Below are positions 8,025-27,633 of a stretch of DNA of 64,000 nucleotides, one piece after another. The position numbers were made by a program, and so were the translations under genes. The DNA is from Rhodovulum euryhalinum (lineage in GTDB: Bacteria; Pseudomonadota; Alphaproteobacteria; Rhodobacterales; Rhodobacteraceae), in assembly GCF_004342445.1 (NCBI RefSeq), contig NZ_SLWW01000015.1, positions 1 through 64,000 on the forward strand. Reading direction: 5' to 3'. Each line of letters starts with the position of its first letter. The stretch's first letter is position 1. A model generated the notes under the pieces. It searched no databases. It saw only the letters and a program-made list of their open reading frames with translations, and had not been told where the DNA came from.

Positions 8025-8660
8025 TCAGGGTCTCTTGTCGCCGGAGATCATTGCATGGGCCAGGTTCTCGCGATGGACCATGCTGGCCCAGGCCACACCG
8101 CCGAGATGCAGCAGGATCAGCACGAGCGACAGGGTGGCGGCGGATTCGTGGACCTCTTCCCAGACGGTCTCGCCCCCTTCGTGCTCCTCCTCTCCATGCG
8201 CCTCGTGGTCATCAGGTGCGCCATGCTCCGCGCTTTCGCCCTGCGCGATCACCCTGGCAAGCGGGCCTTTGCCCTCCTCGGCGGCCAGCGTCGCCATGCC
8301 GGAAAACGCCGTGACGCCCAGCATGGCCAGCAGCGCCACGGTCATCGCGCCGCCGGCCGGGCTGTGGCCGAGATGCCGCTCGGCCTTGCCCGAGACCAGC
8401 CCCTTGAGATAGGCGACGACCTTGCCCGGCCCGGTCACGAAATCCGAGAACCGGGCGCGCTCCGGGCCGATCAGCCCCCAGAAGACACGGAGCAGAACGG
8501 TGGCCGCGATGGCATAGCCGGCCCAGGTGTGCAGCCATTCCGGCTCGCCCTCGGTCAGATAGGCGGTGGCGAACGCCGCCACCAGCACCCAGTGTCCGAT
8601 GCGCACCACCGGGTCCCAGACCCGGATCAGAGCGGTCTCTTGCATGGTTTGGTTCGCCAT
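8025..8660 (-). CDS. Membrane b-type cytochrome (cytochrome b561 / Ni-Fe hydrogenase b-type family)
   Basis: A 211-residue inner-membrane dihaem cytochrome b. The start RVWDPVVRIGHW carries the first haem-ligand histidine of this family. Four hydrophobic helices follow with further histidines (LHTWAGYAI, LILLHLGGVAW). An insert of about 30 residues rich in Glu/Asp/His (HGAPDDHEAHGEEEHEGG) lies between helices 3 and 4 and could bind metal. The family passes electrons between quinones and periplasmic c-type cytochromes. The gene starts inside the stop of the PepSY gene (ATGA at 8660), so the two form one unit, divergent from the PepSY/two-component operon. Confidence 0.88.
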   Translation of the reverse strand: MANQTMQETALIRVWDPVVRIGHWVLVAAFATAYLTEGEPEWLHTWAGYAIAATVLLRVFWGLIGPERARFSDFVTGPGKVVAYLKGLVSGKAERHLGHSPAGGAMTVALLAMLGVTAFSGMATLAAEEGKGPLARVIAQGESAEHGAPDDHEAHGEEEHEGGETVWEEVHESAATLSLVLILLHLGGVAWASMVHRENLAHAMISGDKRP

Positions 8661-8959
8661 CAGTCAGCGCCCCGGCCGGACCGTTCGGCGGGGGCGCCGG
8701 TGGCCGGGTCGAGATAGGCCTCGACCACCATCCCGTTCGCGTCGCGCATCTTGACCTCCCAGTAGCGGCCATCCTCGCGCTCGGCTTCGAGCACGGTGTA
8801 CCCTTGGTTCTCCAGCTTCTCGATCAGCTCGGCCAGCGGCATCCACTGGGCCGATTGCGTCATGGCCTGCGGCGTGTCGGGCGCGGCCTGCGCCGCACCG
8901 AGGGCGGACAGTCCGGCGGCCGTGGCCAGTACGGCGGTGAACAGAAGCGTGCGTTTCAT
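8660..8959 (-). CDS. Secreted PepSY-domain protein
   Basis: A 99-residue periplasmic protein: signal peptide to about residue 25 (AAQA|AP), then one PepSY domain with the diagnostic pattern ...GYTVLEAEREDGRYWEVKM... and ...EAYLDPATGAP. PepSY proteins are small periplasmic inhibitory or metal/redox-associated modules often encoded beside two-component systems and cytochromes b561. It is the first gene of the pair with the membrane cytochrome b and reads away from a second PepSY gene at 9097, with which it shares a 137-base control region. Confidence 0.88.
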   Translation of the reverse strand: MKRTLLFTAVLATAAGLSALGAAQAAPDTPQAMTQSAQWMPLAELIEKLENQGYTVLEAEREDGRYWEVKMRDANGMVVEAYLDPATGAPAERSGRGAD

Positions 8960-9033
8960 TGGGATTTTCCTTTCCGGTTCGGGTGTGCCGGCACGCAGGC
9001 CGACGGCTGTAACGACGTTCTATCCCGGCGCAC

Positions 9034-9072
9034 CTGACACGGGCCTGAGCGCGCTTGTCAGCGTCCTGTCAG
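9034..9072. promoter_or_regulatory. Facing pairs of CTGACA/TGTCAG repeats in the divergent PepSY promoter region
   Basis: CTGACA at 9034 and CTGAGC at 9045 form one direct-repeat pair with 11-base period. TGTCAG at 9056 and at 9067 form a second pair in the opposite orientation, also with 11-base period. The cluster ends 24 bases before the ATG at 9097. The same hexamer pair recurs ahead of the SHP operon (11413-11429). I infer binding sites for the response regulator encoded at 9402. Confidence 0.6.
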
Positions 9073-9096
9073 CCGGGGCAGTGTAGAGATGTCGCC

Positions 9097-9402
9097 ATGA
9101 AACATTCCGTTCTCCTCTTCGCTTCCGCGCTCTTGCTCGCTGCCCCCGCCGGGGCGGAGCGCGACCGCGACCACGACCGTGCGCGCGCGGCGCTGGAACG
9201 CGGCGAGATCCGGCCCCTGCACGTGATCCTGCCCGGGGTGGAGGACCGCTTCGACGCCCGCCTCCTGGAGGTCGAGCTGGAGCGCGAGGACGGCCGGCTG
9301 GTCTACGAGATGGAACTGATCACGCCCGCCGGCCGGATCGTCGAGGTGCTGGTCGATGCCGCCTCCGGCGATGTGCTGGAGCATGCGTTCGAGGACGACT
9401 GA
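9097..9402 (+). CDS. Secreted PepSY-domain protein, first gene of a two-component operon
   Basis: A 101-residue periplasmic protein with signal peptide (MKHSVLLFASALLLAAP) and a PepSY domain over the remainder (...LLEVELEREDGRLVYEMELI..., ...VLVDAASGDVLE). I chose ATG 9097 over the upstream in-frame ATG because the signal peptide then starts correctly. The stop TGATG shares a base with the response-regulator start. PepSY-regulator-kinase operons usually sense envelope or metal conditions, the PepSY protein acting as a modulator of the kinase; that role is inferred here. Confidence 0.88.
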   Translation: MKHSVLLFASALLLAAPAGAERDRDHDRARAALERGEIRPLHVILPGVEDRFDARLLEVELEREDGRLVYEMELITPAGRIVEVLVDAASGDVLEHAFEDD

Positions 9403-10073
9403 TGCGCGTGCTGACCGTCGAGGACGACCCCCGGATCGCGGCCGACCTGTCCGCCGCGCTCGGCGCCGCCGGTTTCCGGGTCGAGACCTGCGGAGACGGC
9501 GAAGAGGCATGGTTCCTTGGCGACACCGAGGATTATGGGCTGGTGGTGCTGGATCTCGGGCTGCCGGGGCTCGACGGGCTGAGTGTTCTGAAACGTTGGC
9601 GGGCGAATGGACGCGAGATGCCGGTACTGGTGCTGACCGCGCGCGGCACCTGGACCGAACGGGTCGAGGGGATCGACGCGGGCGCCGACGACTACCTGCC
9701 CAAGCCCTTCCGCATGGAAGAACTGGTGGCGCGTGCCCGCGCGCTGGTGCGCCGGTCGGCCGGGCGCGGCAGCGCGGTGCAGGAGGCGGGCGACCTCGCG
9801 CTCGACACCAACCGGATGACGGTTTCCTTGCGCGGCGTGCCGGTGCCGGCCACCGCGCTGGAATACCGCCTGCTCGCCTACCTGATGCTGCACCGCGACC
9901 GCGTCGTGCCACCGACGGAACTGCTGGAACATCTCTACGGCGACGACGATTCGCGCGAGGCCAATGCTCTGGAGGCGCTGGTCGCGCGGCTGCGGCGCAA
10001 GCTGGGGCCGGGCGTGATCGGCACACGGCGGGGCTTTGGCTATTTCCTCGACGGCGTGGAAGACGCGCCATGA
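9402..10073 (+). CDS. OmpR/PhoP-family response regulator
   Basis: A 223-residue response regulator. Receiver residues are E7/D8/D9, phospho-acceptor D51 (VVLDLGLPG) and K101 (YLPKPF). The winged helix at about 125-218 includes ALEYRLLAYL and ALVARLRRKLG. Length and sequence fit the PhoP/QseB/BasR branch, which commonly autoregulates through direct hexamer repeats. It is translationally coupled on both sides (TGATG from PepSY, ATGA into the kinase). Likely targets are the CTGACA-repeat promoters at 9034-9072 and 11413-11429. Confidence 0.92.
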   Translation: MRVLTVEDDPRIAADLSAALGAAGFRVETCGDGEEAWFLGDTEDYGLVVLDLGLPGLDGLSVLKRWRANGREMPVLVLTARGTWTERVEGIDAGADDYLPKPFRMEELVARARALVRRSAGRGSAVQEAGDLALDTNRMTVSLRGVPVPATALEYRLLAYLMLHRDRVVPPTELLEHLYGDDDSREANALEALVARLRRKLGPGVIGTRRGFGYFLDGVEDAP

Positions 10074-11416
10074 CGCGGCTGTCGCTGCGGCTGCGGCTGG
10101 CGCTGGCCGGGGCGGTCGCGGTGACGCTGGCGATCGTCGTGTCGTCGCTGGGCCTTGCCGCCCTCTTCGGCGCGCATGTCGAGCGCCGGGCGCTGGCCGA
10201 GCTGTCGGTGCAGCTCGACCAGGTTCTGGCGGGGGTGGAGCGCGGGACCGATGGCGCGCTGGAACTGGCCACCGATCCCGCCGATCCGCGCTTTCGTCGG
10301 GTCTATGGGGGGCTTTACTGGCAGATCGCAGCCGAGGGGCAGGTACTGCGCTCGCGCTCGCTCTGGGACTACGAGATCCCGCTTCCCGCGGACACGCTGG
10401 GCGACGGGGCCGAGCATGTGCATACCCTCGTTGGGCCTGTGGACCAGCCGCTTCTGGCCATCGAGCGCAGCGTGACCCTGCCCGCGCGGCTGGGCGGTGG
10501 CGTGATGCGTGCGGCCGTGGCGATGGACCGGACCGCCCTGGCGGTGGCGCGCGCCGATTTCCTGCGCGACCTCGCGCCCTATTCGGCAGTGCTGGCCGCG
10601 GCGCTGATCGCCGCGGGCTGGGCGCAGATCGCCGTGGGCCTGCGCCCGCTTGGGGCGATCCGGGCCCGCGTTGCCGACATCCGCTCGGGGCGGGAGCGGC
10701 GGCTGGGCGCCGATTTCCCGGCCGAAGTGCAGCCGCTGGCGGCCGAGGTGGACGACCTTCTTGCGGCGCGGGAACAGGAGGTCGAGCGTGCCCGCACCCG
10801 TGCCGGTGACCTCGCGCACGGGCTCAAGACGCCGCTTCAGGCGCTGATGGGCGAGGCGGGGCGGCTCAGGGCCGGGGGGCGCGGCGCCGCGGCCGATGCG
10901 GTCGAGGAGATCGCCTGCGCCATGCGTGCCCATGTCGACCGCGAACTTGCGCGCACGCGCGTCGCCATGCGGGGGCGCCAGGCCCGCGCCGATCTCGCCG
11001 ACGCCGTCGCCGGGCTGCTGCGCGTGATCCGCCGAACCGAGGACGGGGCGCGGCTTGACTGGCGCGTGGATCTGCCCGAGGGGCTGATCGCCGCCGCCGA
11101 TTCCGCCGATCTCTCCGAGGCGTTGGGCGCTCTGATCGAGAACGCCGCGCGCCACGCCCGGTCCTGCGTGGAGATCGCCGGACGCCCCAGCGGCCAACAG
11201 ATCGAGATCGTCATTCGCGACGACGGTCCCGGAATCGCCCCTGACCGGATCGAGGCACTGATGGCGCGCGGCGCGCGGGCCGACACGCGCGGCTCGGGCC
11301 TCGGTCTCGCCATCGCGCGGGACATCGTCGAGGCGCTGGACGGCACGCTTGACCTCAGCGCCGCCGATCCCGGGCTCGCGGCGCTGCTCACCCTGCCCGG
11401 AGCCGATCCTTCCTGA
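10070..11416 (+). CDS. Membrane sensor histidine kinase (PhoQ/QseC-like)
   Basis: A 448-residue sensor kinase for the 9402 regulator. There is a transmembrane helix at about 9-30, a periplasmic region of about 130 residues, a second helix near 165-185, then HAMP. The phosphotransfer motif is DLAHGLKTPLQAL with H250; the HGLKTPL form is typical of PhoQ-like kinases. The ATPase domain has N box (GALIENAARHA), G1 (RDDGPGIAPD) and G2 (GSGLGLAIARD). The ATG at 10070 overlaps the regulator's stop; the open frame extends far upstream but lacks sense there. Its last codons overlap the operator-like repeats for the next operon. Confidence 0.92.
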   Translation: MTRLSLRLRLALAGAVAVTLAIVVSSLGLAALFGAHVERRALAELSVQLDQVLAGVERGTDGALELATDPADPRFRRVYGGLYWQIAAEGQVLRSRSLWDYEIPLPADTLGDGAEHVHTLVGPVDQPLLAIERSVTLPARLGGGVMRAAVAMDRTALAVARADFLRDLAPYSAVLAAALIAAGWAQIAVGLRPLGAIRARVADIRSGRERRLGADFPAEVQPLAAEVDDLLAAREQEVERARTRAGDLAHGLKTPLQALMGEAGRLRAGGRGAAADAVEEIACAMRAHVDRELARTRVAMRGRQARADLADAVAGLLRVIRRTEDGARLDWRVDLPEGLIAAADSADLSEALGALIENAARHARSCVEIAGRPSGQQIEIVIRDDGPGIAPDRIEALMARGARADTRGSGLGLAIARDIVEALDGTLDLSAADPGLAALLTLPGADPS

Positions 11417-11451
11417 CACTTCGCTGACAGGCGCGGTCAGGCCCGCGTCAG
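11413..11451. promoter_or_regulatory. CTGACA direct repeats ahead of the SHP operon
   Basis: CTGACA occurs at 11413 and 11424 (11-base period). TCAG then occurs at 11437 and 11448 (again 11 bases apart). The first repeat overlaps the kinase stop codon. The pattern matches that at 9034-9072, so I infer the same response regulator drives the cytochrome/SHP genes starting at 11503. Confidence 0.55.
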
Positions 11452-11502
11452 CCAGCCCGTGCGAAGACCGCGCGACGGTTGCCCGGTGGAAGGTCAGCGC
11501 CC

Positions 11503-12627
11503 ATGTCACCCCGAACGAGTCTCTCCCCGTTCCCCCTCGTTCCCGTCTGGGATGTCTGGGTTCGCCTGTTCCACTGGGCGCTTGTCCTCTGCATCGGCGG
11601 GGCGGCCCTCACCGGCTTTCTCGCCGATGCACGCTGGGCCGCGGTGCACCTCGCCTGCGGGTTGGGGGCCGCCGCGCTCGTGATCGCGCGGATCATCTGG
11701 GGCCTCTACGGCACCGCGCATGCGCGCTTTGCCGATTTCCTGCCGCGCCCCGCTGCGCTGGTCGCCCATCTTCGCGGCACGGACGGCCGCCATCGCGGCC
11801 ACAACCCGCTGGGCGCGCTGATGGTGCTGGCGATGTTCGCCGCCATCCTGGCGCTCGCCTTCAGCGGCCTTGCGATCCTCGGCGGCTGGCTGCGCCTCGG
11901 CCCGCTCGCCGCCGATCTTGGCACCGAGGCCGGCCGCGCCGCGCGCGCGGCGCATGAGGCCGTCGCCCTTGTCGTGCTCGCGATGATCGCGCTGCATGTG
12001 GGCGGCGTCGTCGTCGAAAGCCGCCGCGAAAGCGAAAACCTCACCCGCGCCATGCTGACCGGGCTGAAGCAGGTGCGTCCCGGCGACGCCTCGCCCGCCG
12101 AGGCGACGCCAAAGGGCCGCCGCGCGCTCGTCGTGCTCGCCGGTCTCGCCGCAACCATCGCCCTTGCCGTCGCCGCACTCTCGGCGCGGCCCGCGCCGAA
12201 CCTGCCGGTCGCCGAAATCGATCCGCTGGTCGCCGCGGAATGTGGCGCCTGTCACATGGCCTACCACCCCAGCCTCCTGCCCGCCAGATCGTGGAAGCAG
12301 TTGATGGCCGGGCTCGACGACCATTTCGGCGAGAACGCCTGGGTCGACGCGGGCGACGCCGCCGAGATCGAGGCCTGGCTGACCGCCCATTCCGCCGAGA
12401 CCGTGGACACCGCGCCCGCGCGCATTTTCGCCCGCACCGATCCCGAGGCCCCGGCCACGCTGACCGAAGCCCCCGCCTGGAAACGCCTGCACGGCGACCT
12501 GCCCGACGCGCTGTTCGACCGCGCGCCGATCTTCAGCCGTGCGAACTGCGCCGCCTGTCACGCCGATGCCGCGACCGGCCGCTTCAGCCCGTTTGCCATT
12601 TCAATCCCGAAGGAGACCGCCGAATGA
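11503..12627 (+). CDS. Cytochrome b561-type membrane domain fused to a dihaem cytochrome c domain
   Basis: A 374-residue fusion. Residues about 1-190 are a four-helix membrane cytochrome b with WDVWVRLFHWALVL at the start and further haem-type histidines (VHLACG, ALHVGGVVV). Another hydrophobic helix lies near 210-228. The C-terminal part is a periplasmic dihaem cytochrome c of the DHC type with two CXXCH sites (CGACHMAYHPSLLPARSW and CAACH). ATG 11503 is preferred because AAGG lies just upstream; a TTG 24 bases earlier is also open. In SHP loci the b cytochrome and DHC are usually separate genes. The gene is coupled to shp by ATGA. Confidence 0.88.
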   Translation: MSPRTSLSPFPLVPVWDVWVRLFHWALVLCIGGAALTGFLADARWAAVHLACGLGAAALVIARIIWGLYGTAHARFADFLPRPAALVAHLRGTDGRHRGHNPLGALMVLAMFAAILALAFSGLAILGGWLRLGPLAADLGTEAGRAARAAHEAVALVVLAMIALHVGGVVVESRRESENLTRAMLTGLKQVRPGDASPAEATPKGRRALVVLAGLAATIALAVAALSARPAPNLPVAEIDPLVAAECGACHMAYHPSLLPARSWKQLMAGLDDHFGENAWVDAGDAAEIEAWLTAHSAETVDTAPARIFARTDPEAPATLTEAPAWKRLHGDLPDALFDRAPIFSRANCAACHADAATGRFSPFAISIPKETAE

Positions 12628-13013
12628 AACGACTGATCGCCCTTTTCGTCCTGTCCGCAGCGCCCGCGCTGGCGCAGGATACCTCGCCCGCCCAACTGAT
12701 CGCCACATACGAGGCCGAGGCCGGCCGCGCAGCCGACCCCGCGGCGGGCGCGGCGTTCTTCATGGCCGACCACACCGGCGGCAAGCCCGAGACGCCCTCC
12801 TGCACGTCCTGTCACACCAGGGATCCGCGCAGCCCGGGGCAGGCCCGCACCGGCAAGGTGATCGAGCCCCTTGCGCCTTCGGTCAACCCCGTGCGCCTGA
12901 CCGAGACCAAGGAGGTCGAGAAATGGCTGGGACGCAACTGCGACAGCGTGCTGGGGCGCGACTGCACCGCCGCCGAAAAGGCCGACATCGTTGCCTGGCT
13001 TGCCAGCCTCTGA
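12624..13013 (+). CDS. shp: Sphaeroides heme protein (SHP), oxygen-binding cytochrome c
   Basis: A 129-residue periplasmic monohaem cytochrome of the DUF1924/SHP family, with signal peptide to about residue 18 (ALAQ|DTSPAQL). The haem site is C60-C63-H64 in PSCTSCHTRDP. The SHP-specific segment KWLGRNCDSVLGRDC supplies the unusual axial Asn (N105 here, Asn88 in the Rhodobacter sphaeroides mature protein) and a likely disulfide. In the characterised family the Asn leaves the iron on reduction so that O2, NO or cyanide can bind. The physiological donor is the dihaem cytochrome c, encoded on either side here. It is coupled to the upstream b-DHC fusion. Confidence 0.93.
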   Translation: MKRLIALFVLSAAPALAQDTSPAQLIATYEAEAGRAADPAAGAAFFMADHTGGKPETPSCTSCHTRDPRSPGQARTGKVIEPLAPSVNPVRLTETKEVEKWLGRNCDSVLGRDCTAAEKADIVAWLASL

Positions 13014-13030
13014 CCCGGAAGGAAGAAACC

Positions 13031-13465
13031 ATGATCCGTTCATTGATCCTCGCCTTCGTCCTCGCCGCCAGCCCGGCGCTGGCCGACGACGACTACATGC
13101 CCCCCGTGACCCATCCCGCCACGCTGGAGGAATGTTCCGCCTGCCATATGGCCTATCCCGCCGGCTTCCTGCCCGCGCGGTCCTGACGCGCGATCATTGG
13201 CGACCTGGAGAACCATTTCGGCGAGAACGCCCAGCTCGACGCGGCCACCCGCGCCGAGATCGAGGCCTATCTGGTCGGGGCCGCCGCGCCGCGCATCCGG
13301 GGCCTGTCGGATACCGCGACGCCGCTCCGGATCAGTGAATTGCCTTGGTTCAAGCGCAAGCACAGCGATGAGGTGACCCCGCGCATGATGGAGAAGGCCA
13401 AGTCTATGGCGAATTGCGTGTCCTGCCATCGCGGCGCCGAGCGTGGCTATTTCGAGGACGACTGA
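13031..13465 (+). pseudogene. Dihaem cytochrome c (DHC) with an in-frame TGA
   Basis: The frame opens 18 bases after shp with a signal peptide (MIRSLILAFVLAASPALA) and the first haem site CSACHMAYPAGFLPARS. It then meets TGA at 13184-13186. Without any shift it continues for 92 codons (RAIIGDLENHFGENAQLD... to CVSCHRGAERGYFEDD), including the second haem site. The homologous motif in the 11503 fusion is LPARSW, so the TGA replaces a Trp TGG by one base. Translation as it stands gives a 51-residue fragment with one haem site. It is either a recent nonsense mutation or a sequencing error. DHC is the known electron donor to SHP. Confidence 0.85.
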
Positions 13466-16811: not shown

Positions 16812-17375
16812 ATGCAGAGCTTGAAGCCAAGGCCGGGGATGCGCGCCATGCAGGTCGGCTGTGCTACCTTCTTTGCCGGCGACGTGCTGTACGACCTCTT
16901 CGAACTGGCCTCGCGGAAATCCCTCCCTGGTCTCGTGGATGCGCTGCACCTGGGAGTCGAAAGCCTGGCCGTCGGCTTCCTGCTCGCAAGCTTGCGAACT
17001 GGCGCCGAATACGAACGCGCCCTTCGCACCCTGGGCGAGAACAAGGACTAGACCCTGTCGGCCCTGCGCGCCTCGTTCGACGATCTGGTCTGCGCCAAGT
17101 TCGACCAATGGGCGCTGTCGCAGGCCGAGCGCGACGTCGCCCTGCTTGCGTTTCGCGGGCTGCGGATCTCGGAAATCGCGACCTTGCGCGGCACCCGCGA
17201 AGGCACCGTAAAAGCGCAGATGAGCGCGATTCTGCACAAGTCCGGGGTCAAGACCCGGGCGGAGTTTCTCGCGCTGTTCATGGACGAGTTCATCGACCTG
17301 GGCGTCGGCTCGGCGGCAGACGGCACCGCGATCCCGTGCAGGGACGGCGAGCACCGCGCGCAAATCTGGGATTGA
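16812..17375 (+). pseudogene. LuxR-type transcriptional regulator with an in-frame amber codon
   Basis: The first part (from MQSLKPRPGMRAMQVGC) has two hydrophobic segments (about residues 11-30 and 42-60) and ends ...RTLGENKD at TAG 17049-17051. With no frame shift it continues TLSALRASFDDLVCAKFDQW and then a LuxR-type helix-turn-helix (LSQAERDVALLAFRGLRISE, IATLRGTREGTVKAQMSAIL, ...SGVKTRAEFLALFMDEFID). In membrane-anchored regulators of this kind the position is commonly a charged or Gln residue, so one base change (e.g. CAG to TAG) explains it. As it stands the DNA-binding half is not made, unless an internal start is used. Confidence 0.8.
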
Positions 17376-17794: not shown

Positions 17795-18700
17795 ATGACG
17801 ACCTTGAAGGATTTTCACCGGACGATGATCGGGCTCTTGTTCTGTGCCGGCGCCGCGCTGGCGCAGGTGGCGCATGCTGACCCGGGCGACGACGATGACG
17901 ACCACGAAGAGCACGAGGAACAGATGCTCACGCTGGCGCAGAAGCTGGCCATTGACCTGTCGGACGGGACCGGGACATTTGATGCCGACACCTCGGTGGT
18001 CGAGGACCTCATCATCGGGCGGGGACTATCGATCCCCTACAGCTACGTGAACATGCTGATGCACACGCCGAACGCGTTCGGCCCCGGGCCGGCCTGCGTG
18101 GTCTGCCATTCCAGCGCGGACCCGGCAAAGAGCTATCGCGGGCTCGACCTGTCGTCATGCGACGGCATCCGCACCGGGTCGACCGAGGCCCCGGCGCGGC
18201 CGATCATCACCCCGGGCAACAATCCCGCGAAGGGCATCCTGGGCCGCCGGCTGCGCAACAACCGGATGCCGTTCGGCACCAATTTCCAGGTGCCCACACG
18301 GTCGCCCAACATCGAACTGGTGGAGGCATGGATCCGCGACGGTGCGGTGGACGACCAGTATTTCAATGACAATGTTCTGCCGCTGTTCGCCACCGAGGGG
18401 GCCTTCGGGTCCGACGCGCCGGCCTGCACCGACTGCCACATGTCGAACCATGAACCTCCCAGCTTCCACGAGATGGACCTGACCTCGTTCAGGGGCATCA
18501 TGCTGGGGGCGGATTCGGTCGCCAAGGGGGTCGAGAACGCGACGAAGATCGTGATCCCCGGCGCGCCCGAGGCCAGCCCGCTGTTGCAGCACCTGACCGA
18601 GAACCGCATGCCGCCGGGCATCAGCCCCGTGGAGGATCGCGACCACCCCAACACGTTGATCCTGTTCGAGTGGGTGCGGCAGGGGGCGCCTTGCGAGTGA
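17795..18700 (+). CDS. Periplasmic dihaem cytochrome c with two repeated domains
   Basis: A 301-residue exported cytochrome. Signal peptide to about residue 30 (AQVAHA|DPG), then an acidic run (DDDDDHEEHEEQ). Two homologous haem domains follow: CVVCHSSADPAKSYRGLDL... with NRMPFG, and CTDCHMSNHEPPSFHEMDL... with NRMPPG. Each CXXCH is therefore paired with a Met about 55-80 residues later as the probable sixth ligand. Both domains end in a similar LVEAWIRDGA / LFEWVRQGA segment, which shows an internal duplication. The stop overlaps the GTG of the PQQ-like gene, so the two products probably work together in periplasmic electron transfer. The substrate is unknown. Confidence 0.85.
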   Translation: MTTLKDFHRTMIGLLFCAGAALAQVAHADPGDDDDDHEEHEEQMLTLAQKLAIDLSDGTGTFDADTSVVEDLIIGRGLSIPYSYVNMLMHTPNAFGPGPACVVCHSSADPAKSYRGLDLSSCDGIRTGSTEAPARPIITPGNNPAKGILGRRLRNNRMPFGTNFQVPTRSPNIELVEAWIRDGAVDDQYFNDNVLPLFATEGAFGSDAPACTDCHMSNHEPPSFHEMDLTSFRGIMLGADSVAKGVENATKIVIPGAPEASPLLQHLTENRMPPGISPVEDRDHPNTLILFEWVRQGAPCE

Positions 18701-19779
18701 GGCTGCCGCGGCGAAGCCTGCTGGCGGCGGCGCCCGCGCTGCTGCTGTCCGGTCGGGGGGCTGCCGCGGCGCAGCCCCTCGAGACGGTGCGGGACTGGCG
18801 CACCGGCAACGCGGCGCTCGGCCCCCCGGCGCTGGACAGCGGCCGGCTTTACTTCTGCGGCACTAGGACGGCGGGCTGCGTCTCGCCCGGCACCGGCACA
18901 CCGCTCTGGGAGCGTCCGCACGGCCTGCCCGGGCCGGCCGTGTTCCGGCCCCGGCTGCAAGGCGACCGGGTAGTCGTCGGCGGCCGCGCCGGGATCGCCT
19001 GCCTTGGCCGCGAGGACGGGCGCGAACTATGGCGGCACGTCGCGCGGATCCAGACCGGGGTGCCGGCCGTGGACCCGGACACGGTGGTTTTCGGTGACGG
19101 ACACGAGATCGTCGCCCGCGACCTGCAGAGCGGCGCGGAACGTTGGCGTTTCGCGGCCATTCCCGATACGCTGGCCAGCTATGCGCCCTGCATTTCGGGT
19201 GGGCGCGTCTTCGCCGGGCCGGGCGACGGCGTGCTCTACTGCCTCGACCTGGCAACGGGGCGCCGCGTCTGGGCGCAGGAGCGGCGCGGGTTGTGGCAAT
19301 ACCTGCGCCAGATCCACGCCGCCGACGGGATACTCGTCGCGGGCAGCTACAAGGAGCAGCTTTTCGGTATCGCGCCGGACGACGGAAGCATCCTGTGGCA
19401 GTTCGTGGCCGGCAACTTCATCAATTCGCACCACCTGGCCGGCGATCTGGCCTGCCTGTGGTCGCCCACGGGCTGGATCTACGCGATCGACATCCTGTCG
19501 GGGGCAGTGCGGTGGCGCCACCAGACGACCGACTATCGCCCCGGCGGCGGGGATTGGGCGTCGCTGATGGCCGAACTGACCAGCCGGGCGGGCCTGCTCT
19601 ATACGCTCGACATGGACGACACGCTGCGGCTGCTCGACCTCGCGAGCGGAGATCTGCGCGGCCAGGGGCGGGTTCCAGGACGGGTGCGCCACGCGGTCCT
19701 GCCCGTCGGCGACCGCCGTGTGGTCTTTCCGATGACGGATGGCAGCCTGCGCATGACACGGATGCCGTTCGCCCGCTGA
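18697..19779 (+). CDS. Exported PQQ-type beta-propeller protein
   Basis: A 360-residue protein starting at GTG 18697, which overlaps the cytochrome's stop (GTGA). The N-terminus LPRRSLLAAAPALLLS has a twin-arginine look, so the protein may be exported folded. The body is a beta-propeller of repeats with the DLxSGxxxWRF-type tryptophan docking motif (SGAERWRFAA, TGRRVWAQE, DGSILWQFVA, SGAVRWRHQT). At 360 residues it is much shorter than quinoprotein alcohol dehydrogenases, and I see no vicinal Cys pair, so it may be a BamB-like scaffold rather than an enzyme. Its coupling to a dihaem cytochrome c favours a redox role. Confidence 0.8.
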   Translation: MRLPRRSLLAAAPALLLSGRGAAAAQPLETVRDWRTGNAALGPPALDSGRLYFCGTRTAGCVSPGTGTPLWERPHGLPGPAVFRPRLQGDRVVVGGRAGIACLGREDGRELWRHVARIQTGVPAVDPDTVVFGDGHEIVARDLQSGAERWRFAAIPDTLASYAPCISGGRVFAGPGDGVLYCLDLATGRRVWAQERRGLWQYLRQIHAADGILVAGSYKEQLFGIAPDDGSILWQFVAGNFINSHHLAGDLACLWSPTGWIYAIDILSGAVRWRHQTTDYRPGGGDWASLMAELTSRAGLLYTLDMDDTLRLLDLASGDLRGQGRVPGRVRHAVLPVGDRRVVFPMTDGSLRMTRMPFAR

Positions 19780-20214: not shown

Positions 20215-20748
20215 TCATCCCGGTCCGGATCCGGCGCCTTGCCGTTCGACAAGCGCGAGCAGGCCGTCGAGCAACGCCAGCGGGGCGGGCGGGCAGCCGG
20301 GGATGTGCAGGTCGACGGGCAGCACCGCCGCGACCCCGCCGGCGATGGCGTAGCTGCCGGCGAAGCAGCCGCCGTCCTTGGCACACTCGCCCACGGCGAT
20401 CACCCATTTCGGCGCCGGGGTGGCGTCAAATGTGCGCCTGAGCGCCTCGGCCATGTTGCGCGTCACAGGCCCCGTGACCAGCAGCACGTCGGCATGCCGC
20501 GGCGAGGCGACGAAATGCAGCCCGAACCGTTCGAGATCGTAGAACGGGTTGCTCAGGGCGTGGATTTCAAGTTCGCAGCCATTGCAGGATCCGGCATCGA
20601 CCGCGCGGATCGACAGGCTGCGCCCAAGCCTCGTGCGGACCGCCCGGGCAAGCGCCGCGCCGAGTTCGTCGCGCGCCGCCTGGCCGGGCTCGGGGGCGGG
20701 CTCGGTCATCGGAGCCCGGATCAGGCCGTCGAGCAGAAAGCGAAGCAC
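20215..20748 (-). CDS. hyfI: NuoB/HyfI-like iron-sulfur subunit of a complex-I-like complex
   Basis: A 177-residue subunit homologous to the small subunit of group 4 [NiFe] hydrogenases and to NuoB. It keeps the ligands of the proximal [4Fe-4S] cluster: C55 and C58 in SCNGCELEI, C122 in GECAKDGG and C152 in IPGCPPAP. The GTG start at 20748 is chosen because GGGAG lies a few bases upstream and the start falls 10 bases after the stop of the large subunit. It is the last gene of the hyfBCEFGI unit. Because the large subunit lacks nickel ligands, the cluster probably serves another redox partner. Confidence 0.85.
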   Translation of the reverse strand: MLRFLLDGLIRAPMTEPAPEPGQAARDELGAALARAVRTRLGRSLSIRAVDAGSCNGCELEIHALSNPFYDLERFGLHFVASPRHADVLLVTGPVTRNMAEALRRTFDATPAPKWVIAVGECAKDGGCFAGSYAIAGGVAAVLPVDLHIPGCPPAPLALLDGLLALVERQGAGSGPG

Positions 20749-20758
20749 GGCGTCTCCC

Positions 20759-22270
20759 TCACAGATCTTGCCCGGAATACGAGCAGTTGAAGGATTTGTT
20801 GCAGAGCGGAAAGTCGGCGATGATGTCGCCCTCGATCGCAGCCTCGAGAAGCGGCCACTGGAACCAGGACGGATCGCGCATGTGGCAGCGCGCGATGGTG
20901 CCTTGCGCATCGAGCGCCAACCAGACCAGAATGTCACCGCGGAACCCCTCGACAAGGCCAAGACCCGAGCGTGGGCCCCCGGCGGGGCTGACCGGCGCCC
21001 GCACCGGTCCCGGCGGCAAAGCATTGAGGATCTGGGTGATCAGGGAACAGCTTTGTTCCACTTCCCTGATCCGGATCCATATCCGGGCGTTGATGTCGCC
21101 ATCGGTGCGCACCGGCACCTCAAGCCGCAGGCTGTCGTAAGGGGCATAGCGCAGGTCGCGCCGGGCGTCGAAGTCGCGTCCCGAGGCCCGGCCGACATAG
21201 CCGCCCGCGGCAAAGCGGTGGGCGAGGCCGGGGTCCAGCCGTCCGGTCGCCACGGTCCGGTCCAGCAGCGATGGCGTATTGTCATAAAGCTCGACAAGCG
21301 CCGGGAAGCGCGCCCGGAGCATCTGGATCAGGGCCTGGATTTCGGCCGCACCGCCAGTGTCGAGATCCACCGTCACGCCGCCGGGCACGATCCGGTCACG
21401 CATGAAGCGGTGACCGAAGACCGATCCCGCGACCCGCAGCACCTGCTCGCGAAGCGCGCCGGTCTGTGCCAGCATCATCGCGAAGGCGGCATCGTTGCAG
21501 ATCGCCCCGATGTCGCCCAGGTGATTGGCCAGCCGTTCCAGTTCCGCCATCAGCCCGCGCAGGTACAGGGCGCGCGGCGGCACCGCGACCGACAGCGCCG
21601 CCTCGGCCGCCTGCGCAAAGGCGAAGGCATAGGCGACGGTACTGTCGCCGCTGGTCCGGCCGGCCAGCTCTGCCCCGCGCTCCAGCGTCGCCCCCTGCAT
21701 CAGCCGGTCGATGCCCTTGTGGACATAGCCCAGACGCTGTTCCAGCCGTACCACGGTCTCGCCCTGCGCCGTAAAGCGGAAATGCCCGGGCTCGATGATC
21801 CCGGCATGCACCGGTCCAACAGGCACCTGGTGAAGGCTCTCGCCCGCGACCGGCAGGAAGGCATAGGGCGCGGGACCGGCATGCGGTGTGGGCTTGCCCA
21901 GCGGATGGGCGATGTCCCAGTGACCATGGTCGAGCCAGGGGCGCCGGTCCTCGGCGCCGTGCAGCTCGTACCCGTAGAGATCGGCCGCCGCGCGCTCCAG
22001 CCGTTGCGCCGGGGCATGGCGGGCGCCGATGGACGGAAAGCCGTCGTGCACCCCCGCAAGGCGTGCCACCGCAACGGCGCGGGCGTCCGCGTCATGCAGC
22101 GCAAGACATACGGCGTCGGTTTCGCCCCAGAGACCGAGCAGCGCGAACCGGCCCGCGGCAAGTGCCCGGCCAAGCGCGATCCATTCGGTCGCCTTGACCC
22201 CGGTTGCGGCCAGCGGCGCCGTGCGAAAATCGCGGGAGCGGGTCCAGTCGAGTCCGGGCAGGTCGGTCAT
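20759..22270 (-). CDS. hyfG: HyfG/NuoCD-like large subunit lacking the [NiFe] ligands
   Basis: A 503-residue fusion of a NuoC-like domain (about 1-140) and a NuoD/hydrogenase-large-subunit domain (about 145-503). The N-terminal motif region VHKGIDRLM...LAGR is conserved, but where HycE/HyfG have RVCGIC this protein has GRTSGDST (residues 204-211), so both cysteines are gone. The C-terminal DPCxxC is replaced by FPLCNKSFNCSYSG. It therefore cannot hold a nickel-iron centre. This fits the energy-converting-hydrogenase-related (Ehr) class of complexes, thought to couple an unknown redox reaction to ion translocation. It precedes hyfI by 10 bases and lies 7 bases after hyfF. Confidence 0.85.
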   Translation of the reverse strand: MTDLPGLDWTRSRDFRTAPLAATGVKATEWIALGRALAAGRFALLGLWGETDAVCLALHDADARAVAVARLAGVHDGFPSIGARHAPAQRLERAAADLYGYELHGAEDRRPWLDHGHWDIAHPLGKPTPHAGPAPYAFLPVAGESLHQVPVGPVHAGIIEPGHFRFTAQGETVVRLEQRLGYVHKGIDRLMQGATLERGAELAGRTSGDSTVAYAFAFAQAAEAALSVAVPPRALYLRGLMAELERLANHLGDIGAICNDAAFAMMLAQTGALREQVLRVAGSVFGHRFMRDRIVPGGVTVDLDTGGAAEIQALIQMLRARFPALVELYDNTPSLLDRTVATGRLDPGLAHRFAAGGYVGRASGRDFDARRDLRYAPYDSLRLEVPVRTDGDINARIWIRIREVEQSCSLITQILNALPPGPVRAPVSPAGGPRSGLGLVEGFRGDILVWLALDAQGTIARCHMRDPSWFQWPLLEAAIEGDIIADFPLCNKSFNCSYSGQDL

Positions 22271-22277
22271 GCTTGCC

Positions 22278-23723
22278 TCATCCCAACACTCCCGCCACCG
22301 CCTGGAACCAGTCGACCATCGCCTGCGGCATGTGCAGACCGATCAGATAGACCAGCGCCAGATGCAGCCAGAGCGGCACCAGAGAGCCCTGCATCGGCGC
22401 GTTCTGTCCCGTTGGCTCGCCGAAGGCGATCCCGGTCAGCCGCAACAGCAGCGCCCCGAAGGCGAGCACCAGGCCGAACACCAGGATCAGCGCCATGAGC
22501 GGCATCCGGGCAAAGCTGGTGGTCACGATCAGGAACTCGCTCATGAACACGCCCGAAGGCGGCATCCCGGCGATCGAGAGCACCGCCAGAACCAGACCCC
22601 AGCCGAGCGCCGGATGGCTTTGCGTCAGGCCGCGGATATCGGCCAGTCGCTGGGTGCCCTTGATCTGTGCGACATTGCCGACGGCGAAGAATATGGCCGA
22701 TTTGGTCAGGGAATGCATCACCATGTGCAGCAGCCCCGCGAAATTGGCGAGCGGCCCGCCGATGCCGAATGCGAAGACGATGATGCCCATGTGCTCGATC
22801 GAGGAATAGGCAAACAGCCGTTTGATGTCGCGGCGGCGGTACAGCATGAAGGCGGCAAAGACCAGCGACAGAAGTCCCAGCCCGATCATCAGCGGCCCCG
22901 GTGCAAGGGCGGCCTCGTTGGCGGTCATCAACAGCTTGAAGCGCAACACCGCATAGAGCGCCACGTTCAGCAGAAGCCCCGACAATACAGCCGAGATGGG
23001 GGTCGGGCCTTCGGCATGGGCGTCCGGCAGCCAGGCGTGGAAGGGGGCAAGCCCCACCTTGGTCCCGTAGCCCACCAGCAGGAACACGAAGGCCACGTTC
23101 AGCATCGCCGGATCGAAGCGTGCCGCCGCCCCGATCAGGTTGGTCCAGACCATCGCGGGCGTGCCTTCGCCCAGAACCGGCTGCGCCGCCATGTAGACGA
23201 GGATCGTGCCGAACAAAGCCAGCGCAATGCCCACCGAGCCGAGGATGAAGTACTTCCAGGCCGCCTCCAGCGCCTCGTGGGTGCGGTAGAGGCCGACCAT
23301 GAGGACCGTGGTCAGGGTGGCAAGCTCGATCGCCACCCACATCAGGCCGATATTGTTCGACACCAGCGCCAGGTTCATGCCGAACATCATCGTCTGGTAC
23401 ATGGCATGGTAGAACCGCAGGTTGACCGGCGTCAGGTGGCCGCTTTTCAGTTCCTGGCCGATATAGCCGGCCGAAAAGGTGGCGGCGGTGGCCCCGACGA
23501 AGGTGTTCAGCACGATGAAGACGATGTTGAGATCGTCCACATGGAGGAGATCGCCCGGCGCCGGCCTGTCCAGCACCACCAGCGCGGCAGCAGCAAGAAA
23601 CGCAAGGAAACTGGCCGCGACATTGATCCATGCGCCCGCCCGATAGCCCGGCAGCAATGCCAGCAGCGCGGCGGCCCCGACCGGCACCGCCAGAACGGCG
23701 ACAAGCGCGTCGGCCCCGGTCAT
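22278..23723 (-). CDS. hyfF: HyfF-like proton-pumping membrane subunit
   Basis: A 481-residue integral membrane protein of the NuoL/M/N (Mrp antiporter) family with about 13-14 hydrophobic helices. Family signatures are present: LMWVAIELATL with the conserved Glu of helix 5, KVGLAPFHAWLPDAHAEGP with the helix 7 Lys, and HMVMHSLTKSAIFFAVGN in the second half-channel. The stop of hyfE overlaps its start (ATGA region at 23720-23723). Together with HyfB it would form the ion-translocating arm of the complex. Confidence 0.9.
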   Translation of the reverse strand: MTGADALVAVLAVPVGAAALLALLPGYRAGAWINVAASFLAFLAAAALVVLDRPAPGDLLHVDDLNIVFIVLNTFVGATAATFSAGYIGQELKSGHLTPVNLRFYHAMYQTMMFGMNLALVSNNIGLMWVAIELATLTTVLMVGLYRTHEALEAAWKYFILGSVGIALALFGTILVYMAAQPVLGEGTPAMVWTNLIGAAARFDPAMLNVAFVFLLVGYGTKVGLAPFHAWLPDAHAEGPTPISAVLSGLLLNVALYAVLRFKLLMTANEAALAPGPLMIGLGLLSLVFAAFMLYRRRDIKRLFAYSSIEHMGIIVFAFGIGGPLANFAGLLHMVMHSLTKSAIFFAVGNVAQIKGTQRLADIRGLTQSHPALGWGLVLAVLSIAGMPPSGVFMSEFLIVTTSFARMPLMALILVFGLVLAFGALLLRLTGIAFGEPTGQNAPMQGSLVPLWLHLALVYLIGLHMPQAMVDWFQAVAGVLG

Positions 23724-24385
23724 GGCCGGTCTCCCCGGAACTCGCCCATCGTCTCGACATCCACCGAGTCGAACCGCTCGCGAATACGGAACAGGAACAC
23801 GCCGATCACGATCATCGCGATCAGCACCGAAAACGCGACGCTGATCTCCACCACCAGCGGCATCCCCTGCGCCCCGGCGGCGGCCAGGATCAGCCCGTTT
23901 TCCAGCGACATGAAGCCCACCACCTGCGTCACCGCGTTGCGCCGTGTCACCATCATCAGCATGCCCAGCAGGATCACTGACAGCGCAAAGGCGAGATCCT
24001 CGCGTGCCAGTGCGCTTTCGGCCGCGGCGGTCAGTTGCAGCATCAGCAGGATCGACAACGCCACCAGACCCATGCCCGCCAGCATCGTGGGCACGACGCC
24101 TGTGACCGTCTCGACCTGGCGCTGAATCCCCATTCGTGCCACCATCCGGTGCAGCGCCCAGGGGACGATCATCGCCTTGAAGACCAGTGCAATCGCCGCC
24201 GTCGCGTACAGATGCGGTGCACCCTGGATGAACGCCTGCCAGGCCACCGCCAGCGCCAGGACCACGGCCTGCATCGCGAAGGTGTTGAGCAGGGCATAGA
24301 TCCGGTCCTGGTAGATCATCATGAAGCTGACCAGCACCAGGCTGCCGGACAAGAGATGCGCGATGTCGAAGGCGTAGCCGTCCAT
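23720..24385 (-). CDS. hyfE: Hydrogenase-4 component E-like membrane subunit (NuoK-related)
   Basis: A 221-residue membrane protein with about six or seven helices. It carries the NuoK-like motif GFMSLENGLILAA, with its conserved membrane Glu, and a C-terminal helix (FSVLIAMIVIGVFLFRIRERF). It sits between hyfC and hyfF as in Hyf/Hyc-type operons. The start at 24385 is 1 base beyond the stop of hyfC (24387), so the two are effectively contiguous. Confidence 0.88.
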   Translation of the reverse strand: MDGYAFDIAHLLSGSLVLVSFMMIYQDRIYALLNTFAMQAVVLALAVAWQAFIQGAPHLYATAAIALVFKAMIVPWALHRMVARMGIQRQVETVTGVVPTMLAGMGLVALSILLMLQLTAAAESALAREDLAFALSVILLGMLMMVTRRNAVTQVVGFMSLENGLILAAAGAQGMPLVVEISVAFSVLIAMIVIGVFLFRIRERFDSVDVETMGEFRGDRP

Positions 24386-24386
24386 C

Positions 24387-25343
24387 TCAGAGGCTCCTCG
24401 ACACGAACAGAAGAAGCGTTCCCAGCAGCCCCAGCATCAGCCCGACACCCAGAAAGTCGGGAATACGGAACACCCGCATCTTCGCGACCGACGTCTCGAA
24501 GATCGCCAACAGCGTTCCGCCGGCCGCAAGCTTTGCAAGGAAGAACAGGAACCCGGTCACGAAACCGGCGGGCCCGGCATCGGCCGGGGCGATCCCCCAG
24601 GGCGCGGCAAGGCAGCCGATCAGTGCGACATAGAGCAGGAGCTTCAGCGCCGCGGCGAGTTCGATCATCGCCAGGTGACGGCCGGAATATTCCAGCACCA
24701 TCGCCTCGTGCACCATGGTCAGTTCCAGGTGGGTCGCCGGGTTGTCGACCGGGATGCGGGCGTTTTCCGCGATGGCCACGATGATCAGCGCGATCAGCGC
24801 CATGCCCATCGACACGCGGATGCCCATCTCGCCCGAGGACATGAACGCGACGACGTTCGACAATTGCGTCGATCCCGCGATCAGCGCGACGGTGAACACG
24901 GCCAGCAGCATGGCCGGCTCGGCGATCGCCCCGATCATCATCTCGCGCGACGCGCCGAGGCCGCCGAAACTCGTGCCGACATCCAAGCTGGCGAGCGCCA
25001 GGAAGAACCGCGCGCTGCCCAGAAGCGCCACAAGCGCGATCAGGTCGGCGGTCCAGCTGAACTGGAGACCGATGGCAAAGGTCGGCACCAACGCCGCTGC
25101 CACCCAGGTCGCGGAGAAGATCATGTAGGGCGCGGCGCGGAACAGCCACGACGCGTTGTCCGCCAGCACCACGTCCTTGCGCATCAGCCGCGCCAGATCG
25201 CGATAGGGTTGCAGGATCGAGGGCCCCCGCCGGCGCATCAGCCGCGCCTTGACCTTGACGATCAGTCCGGTCAGTCCGGGTGCCAGAGCCAGCACGACCA
25301 GCATCTGCACCCCTTGCAGCACGAGATTGCCGATCAGTTCCAT
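24387..25343 (-). CDS. hyfC: HyfC/NuoH-like membrane subunit
   Basis: A 318-residue membrane protein related to NuoH and HycD/HyfC, the subunit that docks the peripheral arm to the membrane. About eight helices are visible. Family motifs: LKVKARLMRRRGPSILQPYR-type loop near residue 30-50 (the protein has VKARLMRRRGPSILQPYRDL), and AIAENARIPVDNPATHLELT with the conserved acidic residues followed by MVHEAMVLEYSGR. ATG 25343 lies 10 bases inside the end of hyfB. The frame is open far upstream, but this start is the family's. Confidence 0.9.
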   Translation of the reverse strand: MELIGNLVLQGVQMLVVLALAPGLTGLIVKVKARLMRRRGPSILQPYRDLARLMRKDVVLADNASWLFRAAPYMIFSATWVAAALVPTFAIGLQFSWTADLIALVALLGSARFFLALASLDVGTSFGGLGASREMMIGAIAEPAMLLAVFTVALIAGSTQLSNVVAFMSSGEMGIRVSMGMALIALIIVAIAENARIPVDNPATHLELTMVHEAMVLEYSGRHLAMIELAAALKLLLYVALIGCLAAPWGIAPADAGPAGFVTGFLFFLAKLAAGGTLLAIFETSVAKMRVFRIPDFLGVGLMLGLLGTLLLFVSRSL

Positions 25344-27337
25344 ATGGTCAGCCCCGTCAGCAACAGGATCAATGACGCAAAGACCAGCGCCAGATAGCGC
25401 CGGATCGTGAGAAACTGCAGCGCGTTCAGACGGGTCGCAGCCAGGCCGACAAGTGCGCTCAGCGGCAGGTAGAGGCGTGTCCAGGCAAGGTCTTCGGTCA
25501 CCACGCTGTGGCGCGCCGGCCCCATGTCGCCCGGCGGCGGCATGATCACCGTCTCGCGCGCGGCGATCATCGGCGCCATCACCCGGCGGATCGGCTGCGC
25601 AAAGCTGCCCGCACCGTATTGCGTGATCGGATCGGCATCGGGAAAGCCGCAATCCCAGGCCGGGGCGCGCCGCGTCCGTCGCGACGAGAACCGGTACACC
25701 GCCGCGGCCGCCGCGCCGCCCGAGATCGCGACGAAAACCATGACGAGGAAACCGCTATAGCTGCTTTGCACCTCTGCCACCGGGACCAGGGTGAACCAGG
25801 CATTGTCCGCCTGAGCCGGCATCCGCGCGCCCAGAACCAGATCGATGGCGGGCGCGATCAGGTCGATCAGAAGGCCCGGCACGACCCCCGCAAGGACGCA
25901 GAGCAGCGCCAGCCCGGCCATCGCCGCCAGCGACCAGCGGTCGGTCTCGGCCGCATCGCGGGCCATATTCGTGCGCGGACGGCCGAGGAAGATCACGCCG
26001 AAGAAGCGAACGAAACAGGCCGCCGCCAGCGCTGCCGCCAGCGCCAGCAAGCCGCCCGCCGCCGGCACCAGGAACTGCAGCCCGGGCTGGGTCAGGTTCG
26101 GGCTTTGCAGCACGGCCTGGAACAGCAGCCATTCCGAGACGAAGCCGTTGAGCGGCGGCAGGGCCGCGATCGCGGTAACGCCCACCAGCGCCAGCAGCGC
26201 GGTCTTCGGCATCCGGTGGATCAGCCCGCCAAGCGCGTCGAGATCCTGCCGCCCGGTGGCGGTCAGTACGGCGCCCGCGACCATGAAGAGCAGGCTCTTG
26301 AACAGCATGTGGTTCATCGCATGGATCAGCCCGGCGGTCAGTGCCAGCGCCGCCAGCACGTCCATTCCGTTCGCCCGGAAGGCCAGCGCAAGGCCGAGCG
26401 CCGCGAAGATGACGCCGATATTCTCGATCGTCGAATAGGCCAGTATCCGCTTGGCGTCCGCGTCGACATTGGCAAACAGGATGCCCATCACCGCGGTGCC
26501 TGCGCCCGCCACGATCACCGGCACGCTCATCCACCAGACAACCGGGTCCAGCAGGTCGAACGCGACGCGAACGAAGCCGTAGACGGCAACCTTGGTCATC
26601 ACGCCGCTCATCAGTGCCGAGACGTGGCTGGGGGCTGCCGGATGCGCGACCGGCAGCCAGACATGGAGCGGCACAAGCCCCGCCTTGGACCCCGCGCCAA
26701 CCATCATCAGCCCCAGCACCAAAGCCGCCACCCCCGGACTGCGCTCGGCCTCGCGCATCGCCGCGAACTCGTAACCACCCGCGGCGCCCGCCATCAGGCC
26801 GAAGGCCAGAAGCAGCATCATCGTGCCAAGGCTGGCCATCACCAGATAAAGATAGGCCGCGCTGCGCGTCTCTTCTTCGCGGTGATGGGTCAGCACCATC
26901 GCCCAGGACAGCAGCGACATCACCTCCCAAGACAGCAGGAAGGTGAAAGCGTCGGCTGCCAGCACCACCAGCGTCATCGCCCCCAGGAAGCCGGGATAGA
27001 ACGGCAGCACCCGCAGCGGCGCATGTTCGTGCCGGCCGTAGCCGATGGCATAAAGGCTTGCCGCAGCGCCGCCGGTGCCGAGCAGCACCAGAAACACCGC
27101 CGCAAGCGCGTCGATCTGCAGATGGGCACCCAGCCAGGGCAATCCGACGGGAACGCGCATGCTTTCCGCGTCGGCCTGCGTCGCCAGCACCCGAAGCCCA
27201 ACCACCACCAGGCCCGCACAAAGTACGCCGCTTGCGCCATAGACGATCGCCGACGCCGCCCGGATGTCCCGCATGCCGATTGCCGCCAGCGACAGCCCCA
27301 GAAGACACAGCACGCTGCAGACCGCGAAAGCGATCAT
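25334..27337 (-). CDS. hyfB: HyfB-like proton-pumping membrane subunit
   Basis: A 667-residue NuoL-like membrane protein with about 15-16 helices. Signatures include FLLSWEVMSLLSWAMVLTHH (conserved helix 5 Glu), GSKAGLVPLHVWLPVAHPAA (helix 7 Lys) and HAMNHMLFKSLLFMVAGAVL. The soluble end (RRTRRAPAWDCGFPDAD) is typical of HyfB/HycC. ATG 27337 is preferred because it overlaps the stop of the XRE regulator (ATGA) and opens directly on a membrane helix (MIAFAVCSVLCLLG). The upstream extension is Arg-rich and unlikely to be translated. Confidence 0.9.
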   Translation of the reverse strand: MIAFAVCSVLCLLGLSLAAIGMRDIRAASAIVYGASGVLCAGLVVVGLRVLATQADAESMRVPVGLPWLGAHLQIDALAAVFLVLLGTGGAAASLYAIGYGRHEHAPLRVLPFYPGFLGAMTLVVLAADAFTFLLSWEVMSLLSWAMVLTHHREEETRSAAYLYLVMASLGTMMLLLAFGLMAGAAGGYEFAAMREAERSPGVAALVLGLMMVGAGSKAGLVPLHVWLPVAHPAAPSHVSALMSGVMTKVAVYGFVRVAFDLLDPVVWWMSVPVIVAGAGTAVMGILFANVDADAKRILAYSTIENIGVIFAALGLALAFRANGMDVLAALALTAGLIHAMNHMLFKSLLFMVAGAVLTATGRQDLDALGGLIHRMPKTALLALVGVTAIAALPPLNGFVSEWLLFQAVLQSPNLTQPGLQFLVPAAGGLLALAAALAAACFVRFFGVIFLGRPRTNMARDAAETDRWSLAAMAGLALLCVLAGVVPGLLIDLIAPAIDLVLGARMPAQADNAWFTLVPVAEVQSSYSGFLVMVFVAISGGAAAAAVYRFSSRRTRRAPAWDCGFPDADPITQYGAGSFAQPIRRVMAPMIAARETVIMPPPGDMGPARHSVVTEDLAWTRLYLPLSALVGLAATRLNALQFLTIRRYLALVFASLILLLTGLTIWN

Positions 27338-27633
27338 CCGGCGTCTCCAATGCTCCCCGGTGCAACGGCGTCCGGGCGTTCGCCTGCGCGTTCCCGCAGC
27401 CGAACGCCCCGGCCGCAACCGGTGCTGGGCCCGCCCTCGGCGATCAGTTCTATGCCTGCCGTCTCCAGCGCCGTGATGATGCGGGTCAGGCTGTCGACCA
27501 CACCGCGCACATTTCCCTTGTTTGCCTCCATTCGCTGGATGGTGGGCACCGACAGCCCGGCCATCCGGGCCAGGGTCTTCTGATCGACCCCAAGAAGCGC
27601 CCGTGCTGCCTTGATCTGTGGCCCGGTGATCAT
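27334..27633 (-). CDS. XRE-family transcriptional regulator, first gene of the hyf unit
   Basis: A 99-residue protein with a lambda-repressor-type helix-turn-helix at residues about 5-60 (ITGPQIKAARALLGVDQKTL, then LARMAGLSVPTIQRMEANKG). The C-terminal 35 residues are basic and Gly-rich. ATG 27633 has GAGG about 12 bases upstream; a further ATG at 27675 would translate through the palindrome at 27660-27678, so I consider it less likely. Its stop overlaps hyfB (ATGA), so regulator and complex are co-translated. I infer autoregulation through the palindrome. Confidence 0.75.
   Translation of the reverse strand: MITGPQIKAARALLGVDQKTLARMAGLSVPTIQRMEANKGNVRGVVDSLTRIITALETAGIELIAEGGPSTGCGRGVRLRERAGERPDAVAPGSIGDAG

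Follow-up and report, generated by a model that had tools for sequence, protein, structure and literature searches.

The foxEY gene pair of the phototrophic Fe(II)-oxidation operon, with no foxZ beside it, in Rhodovulum euryhalinum

Identification of the gene pair as foxEY

In the stretch of Rhodovulum euryhalinum DNA analysed here (64 kb, hereafter the window), two overlapping genes for a dihaem cytochrome c and an exported propeller were assigned, by comparison with their homologues, to foxEY of the described phototrophic Fe(II)-oxidation operon foxEYZ. We consider it very likely that this pair serves phototrophic Rhodovulum in the oxidation of Fe(II) that feeds light-driven growth, with FoxY as the partner of FoxE. 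The sequence-only reading of this DNA had taken the pair for a self-contained periplasmic redox module which could not be assigned to a described system. A periplasmic redox module is probably what it is, but the system is a described one, since the cytochrome is FoxE, whose structure has been solved. Both open reading frames lay where they had been placed, the propeller frame running to 19779. The features of the pair are as follows.

17795..18700 (stop codon included), + strand: foxE, dihaem c-type cytochrome of 301 aa; PDB match 5mab
17888..17920, + strand: acidic/His stretch of FoxE, residues 32-42, after the predicted signal peptide, as read from the sequence
18095..18109, + strand: haem I motif, CVVCH at residues 101-105; unchanged across all 5 aligned sequences, motif in 9 of 9 FoxE
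18158..18160 and 18692-18694, + strand: Cys122 and Cys300, expected disulfide pair; invariant in 5 of 5 aligned sequences, present in 9 of 9 FoxE
18266-18268, + strand: Met158, sixth ligand of haem II by homology
18425..18439, + strand: haem II motif CTDCH, residues 211-215; invariant in 5 of 5 aligned sequences, motif in 9 of 9 FoxE
18608-18610, + strand: Met272, sixth ligand of haem I by homology
18691..18700, + strand: foxE-foxY overlap of 10 bases (4 bases, GTGA at the foxE stop, if GTG is the start)
18691..19779, + strand: foxY, exported PQQ-like beta-propeller; 362 aa from TTG 18691, 360 aa from GTG 18697

The FoxE of Rhodobacter ferrooxidans SW2 (5mab/5mvo) was the sole PDB match to the window cytochrome (E 3.9e-106, residues 45-301), and the two proteins were 59% identical over 256 residues. 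Genome G150 was taken as that of SW2, because its FoxE matched 5mab over residues 1-291 with zero mismatches. The order of the genes at its locus (L043) was foxE-foxY-foxZ, which, together with the 5mab match, fixed the family of the window pair. The haem ligands and the disulfide of FoxE, given in Rhodoferax numbering in the available text of PMC10654088, were transferred to the window protein by a constant offset of 64 residues. The mapped sites were Cys101-Cys104-His105-Met272, Met158-Cys211-Cys214-His215, and Cys122-Cys300, and all ten residues were invariant across the five aligned sequences. The two haem domains had been described as duplicated, and the internal duplication was borne out by local alignment of the halves, which scored 121, whereas 1000 shuffled versions of one half reached 54 at most. 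The acidic/His tail was present in all three Rhodovulum FoxE and in neither SW2 nor G027 FoxE; as a speculation, it might hold metal ions.

The FoxY of the window was 48-49% identical to that of SW2 (49% over 330 residues). The propeller had been described as a 360-residue exported protein coupled to the cytochrome through GTGA, and this holds when foxY is started at GTG 18697. However, TTG 18691 appears to be the likelier start, because the 10-base overlap then matches the equivalent overlap at all five foxEY loci, where the start codons were TTG, GTG, GTG, ATG, and ATG. The Tat route recognizes a twin-arginine motif as its export signal. Two arginines near the N terminus of FoxY were invariant in all five sequences, suggesting that FoxY may be exported by this route. 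No internal stop was present in foxE or foxY, and both proteins could be aligned almost end to end with their homologues in four further genomes, which excludes chance open reading frames. The promoter scan gave 0 promoter-like sites, and the terminator scan gave 2 terminator-like sites within foxY, compared to 1.4 expected.

Comparison with the SW2 operon and the position of foxZ

Like the SW2 operon, the window has foxE followed by foxY with a 10-base overlap, and the haem ligands and disulfide cysteines are kept. The two differ in that foxZ is not adjacent to the window pair and a close copy of it is absent from the genome, that SW2 FoxE is devoid of the acidic/His tail, and that PQQ genes are present in the window genome, whereas in SW2 none of pqqB, pqqC, and pqqE exceeded the cut-off. 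No FoxZ match was found in the 64-kb window, and SW2 FoxZ as a query retrieved only distant matches from the genome, at 30% (E 3.1e-6) and 22% (7.2e-6). The same query gave a single match of 26% in G008. A FoxZ homologue of 49% was located in R. adriaticum on a contig other than that of foxEY, and one of 33% in G027 away from foxEY. In the three-gene foxEYZ operon foxZ stands directly downstream of foxY; the window locus is foxEY.

The available text of PMC10654088 describes the lack of foxZ as the usual state of foxEY operons outside Rhodobacter, and it lists Rhodovulum with the genera that have pet, pio, mto, and foxEYZ components. The foxEY operons described there consist of foxEY alone, as in the window, and nothing essential appears to differ. 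That text has no mention of the upstream cluster or the interrupted LuxR-like gene described below, and no foxE appears in the available text of PMC9230146. Our assignment adds one more phototrophic Rhodovulum to the carriers of the Fe(II)-oxidation pair, here lacking foxZ.

Relatives of the FoxY propeller

The AlphaFold2 model of FoxY had a mean pLDDT of 83.2, a pTM of 0.82, and 32 strands, which we read as eight blades with the N-terminal strand closing the propeller. An eight-bladed FoxY is also predicted in the available text of PMC10654088. When the model was searched with Foldseek, the best 28 of the 50 matches listed were BamB. VIA-align placed the tetrathionate hydrolase of Acidithiobacillus ferrooxidans (6l8a) first among the matches listed (Z 33.4, rmsd 2.8, 323 aligned), in a tie with BamB and designed propellers. 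The hydrolase has its fold in common with FoxY at 18% identity, and this common fold shows no shared function. No PQQ dehydrogenase was among the 50 matches listed by Foldseek or VIA-align, an absence that excludes nothing.

BamB and FoxY are both propellers of about equal size. However, they are only 15-20% identical, FoxY is coupled to foxE, and the score of FoxY against the BamB model TIGR03300 (85 bits) was far from the cut-off of 285.2, so BamB proper was rejected. BamB carries a lipoprotein cysteine at the end of its signal peptide, whereas FoxY has no cysteine in residues 1-53, its first being residue 54.

The coupling of a PQQ-like propeller gene to a cytochrome c gene could also be that of a quinoprotein dehydrogenase and its own cytochrome subunit. 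We regard this as extremely improbable, because FoxY has only about 330 residues after the signal, the cytochrome is FoxE, and the models of PQQ-dependent dehydrogenases were far below their cut-offs (PF01011, 18.6 versus 26.7 bits; TIGR03075, 17.8 versus 480). The earlier view that the propeller belongs to no known quinoprotein dehydrogenase was thus upheld, and the finding that would have spoken against it, homologues forming a known dehydrogenase and its cytochrome subunit, was not made among these models.

FoxY and PQQ

FoxY is called PQQ-containing in papers including PMC10654088 and PMC3753534, as far as their available text goes. In the portion of the literature covered, this label was repeated and not questioned, and doubt may have been voiced elsewhere. 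When the five foxEY genomes were compared, pqqB, pqqC, and pqqE exceeded the family cut-offs in two, the window genome and G008. None of the three did so in R. adriaticum, G027, or SW2, each given as 99% complete. Below the cut-offs, the best pqqE match was that of SW2 (100.7 bits, E 7.5e-29; cut-off 381), and pqqB matches of 25-29 bits were obtained in R. adriaticum, G027, and SW2. Matches of this kind were also given by 14 control genomes (the pqqE model in 14, pqqB in six, and pqqC in none), suggesting that they represent relatives from wider superfamilies. Since the genes exceeded the cut-offs in only two of the five foxEY genomes, and neither of these is SW2 or R. adriaticum, the PQQ label of FoxY appears doubtful.

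Two readings of FoxY were weighed on these data. FoxY may be a cofactor-free propeller, perhaps exported folded by Tat, with the task of docking or assembling FoxE or of dealing with Fe(III); we give this about an even chance. On this reading the label came over from the propeller family as an annotation; SW2, from which it stems, has none of pqqB, pqqC, and pqqE above cut-off. The 100.7-bit pqqE match of SW2 weighs against it, as do the pqq genes that the window genome carries. Conversely, FoxY may be a true PQQ protein acting as a quinone electron relay beside FoxE, with PQQ imported where the genes are missing, as uptake of external PQQ can occur. This is somewhat unlikely in our judgement. 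It is favoured by the published label, by the PF13360 match of 104.8 bits (a family that also holds BamB), and by the presence of pqqB, pqqC, and pqqE above cut-off in two genomes, the window's and G008; it is opposed by the lack of pqqB, pqqC, and pqqE above cut-off in the other three foxEY genomes and by the low scores of the dehydrogenase models. Furthermore, adjacent cysteines, which are typical of alcohol dehydrogenases but not of every quinoprotein, were found in neither window nor SW2 FoxY. Phototrophic iron-oxidation models in which FoxY figures as a quinone redox protein would have to be revised if it needs no PQQ.

Distribution of foxE

Genes for the reaction-centre L and M subunits were present in all 16 genomes of the genus, the window genome included, and foxE was present in three. 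Among 394 genomes drawn from the family, six gave a match to FoxE, three of them strong; the three weak ones were 37-40% over 88-89 residues. Among 398 genomes drawn from the phylum, 27 gave a match and five were strong, one being that of the window genome and the remaining four coming from different families. The weak matches (three family-draw genomes and 22 further phylum-draw genomes) were left out of the FoxE count. FoxE is not a known plasmid-borne module, as tblastn gave no match to it in 72,556 plasmid records.

Four genomes of two other families carried a FoxE homologue at about 50% identity (loci L077, L078, L079, and L080). The examined flanks of these genes (0.7 to 6.5 kb on each side) yielded no match to FoxY or FoxZ, and pqqB was not found in the four genomes. 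Because no FoxY match flanks these four genes, FoxE can apparently stand without an adjacent FoxY, which may not always be needed.

Proposed role of FoxE and FoxY

FoxE would be exported to the periplasm, where single electrons from Fe(II) would pass onto its two His/Met haems. From FoxE the electrons would reach the photosynthetic reaction centre, probably by way of a soluble carrier (cytochrome c2, for instance), and Fe(II) would thereby feed light-driven growth. FoxY would be made together with FoxE through translational coupling; rather than working as a PQQ enzyme, it would most likely partner FoxE, provide it with a propeller scaffold, or help to handle the Fe(III) produced. We infer the electron route and its direction from the kept ligands and from published work linking foxEYZ or FoxE to phototrophic Fe(II) oxidation (including the available text of PMC10654088 and PMC3753534). 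The proposed roles of FoxY without PQQ follow from the two of five foxEY genomes with pqqB, pqqC, and pqqE above cut-off and from the dehydrogenase models below theirs.

Several observations count against the proposed role in Fe(II) oxidation. foxZ is missing and the LuxR-like neighbour is interrupted in the window; foxE occurs in only three of the 16 genomes of the genus, and the matches in the family and phylum draws were mostly weak; FoxE has no FoxY beside it in four other genomes; and FoxY could hold PQQ in the window genome, which has the pqq genes. The opposite direction or another donor or acceptor was also considered, with FoxE reducing Fe(III) or serving more generally in periplasmic electron transfer. 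FoxE was earlier assumed to catalyse Fe(III) reduction (available text of PMC11570789), and the solitary FoxE homologues would suit such a function. However, the same text reports a FoxE fraction with weak Fe(III)-reducing activity, and heterologous expression ties the operon to Fe(II) oxidation (available text of PMC3753534). We therefore consider this alternative improbable, and Fe(II) oxidation remains the preferred role.

Gene neighbourhood of foxEY

Open reading frames of at least 120 residues were compared among nine foxE loci, the window being represented by its stretch 8001-30000. The sequence-only reading had proposed searching other genomes for the same pair and noting constant neighbours. 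The pair itself was compared at five foxEY loci, the window included. The window and R. adriaticum had a cluster in common upstream of foxEY; the LuxR-like and SHP proteins found no match in the examined regions of the other three foxEY loci. The neighbours are as follows.

8025-8660, - strand: cytochrome b561, in the cluster common with the R. adriaticum fox locus (whole cluster 8025..13465)
9402-10073, + strand: response regulator, same cluster
within 9356-11416, + strand: kinase frame, same cluster
11479-12627, + strand: b561-DHC (dihaem cytochrome) fusion, same cluster
12624-13013, + strand: SHP-type cytochrome (DUF1924), same cluster
13031-13465, + strand: second dihaem-cytochrome-like gene with an in-frame TGA at 13184, judged by eye, same cluster
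16812..17375, + strand: LuxR-like regulator gene with an in-frame TAG at 17049-17051, adjoining foxE

The cluster had Pfam support for four genes in the window and three in R. adriaticum, and we take its DUF1924 cytochrome to be SHP. A small PepSY protein was also seen in the R. adriaticum cluster, with a window counterpart judged by eye. The second dihaem-cytochrome-like gene had an uninterrupted homologue in R. adriaticum. Likewise, the LuxR-like gene had an intact counterpart in R. adriaticum (L035 8052-8585; 50% identity), which also lies upstream of foxE and whose product was weakly LuxR in Pfam (PF00196, 18.4 bits versus a cut-off of 23.5). The in-frame stops at 13184 and 17049 may be real or assembly errors. 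The LuxR-like product is a possible regulator neighbouring foxEY, and the R. adriaticum locus, with the intact gene beside foxEY, offers the candidate. At E 1e-3, the LuxR-like and SHP proteins had no match in the examined regions of G008, G027, SW2, and the four solitary FoxE loci; therefore, the upstream neighbourhood is common to two of the five foxEY loci.

A hydrogenase-4-like membrane complex was observed at 20215-27418 on the - strand, convergent with foxEY. Its subunits were NuoB-like, 49 kDa-like, HyfF (845 bits, cut-off 533), and HyfE-like, with two further membrane subunits judged by eye. Hydrogenase large subunits usually have nickel-binding cysteine pairs, and by eye these were absent from the large subunit of the complex. 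A tie between foxEY and this complex was rejected, as the two are convergent on opposite strands and the large subunit was found in one of the 16 genomes of the genus (E 1e-60), versus three for foxE. In G008, the surroundings were unlike those in the window, and foxEY had a protoglobin chemotaxis receptor on one side and an E1-E2 ATPase on the other (L034 7894-9234 and 11687-13600).
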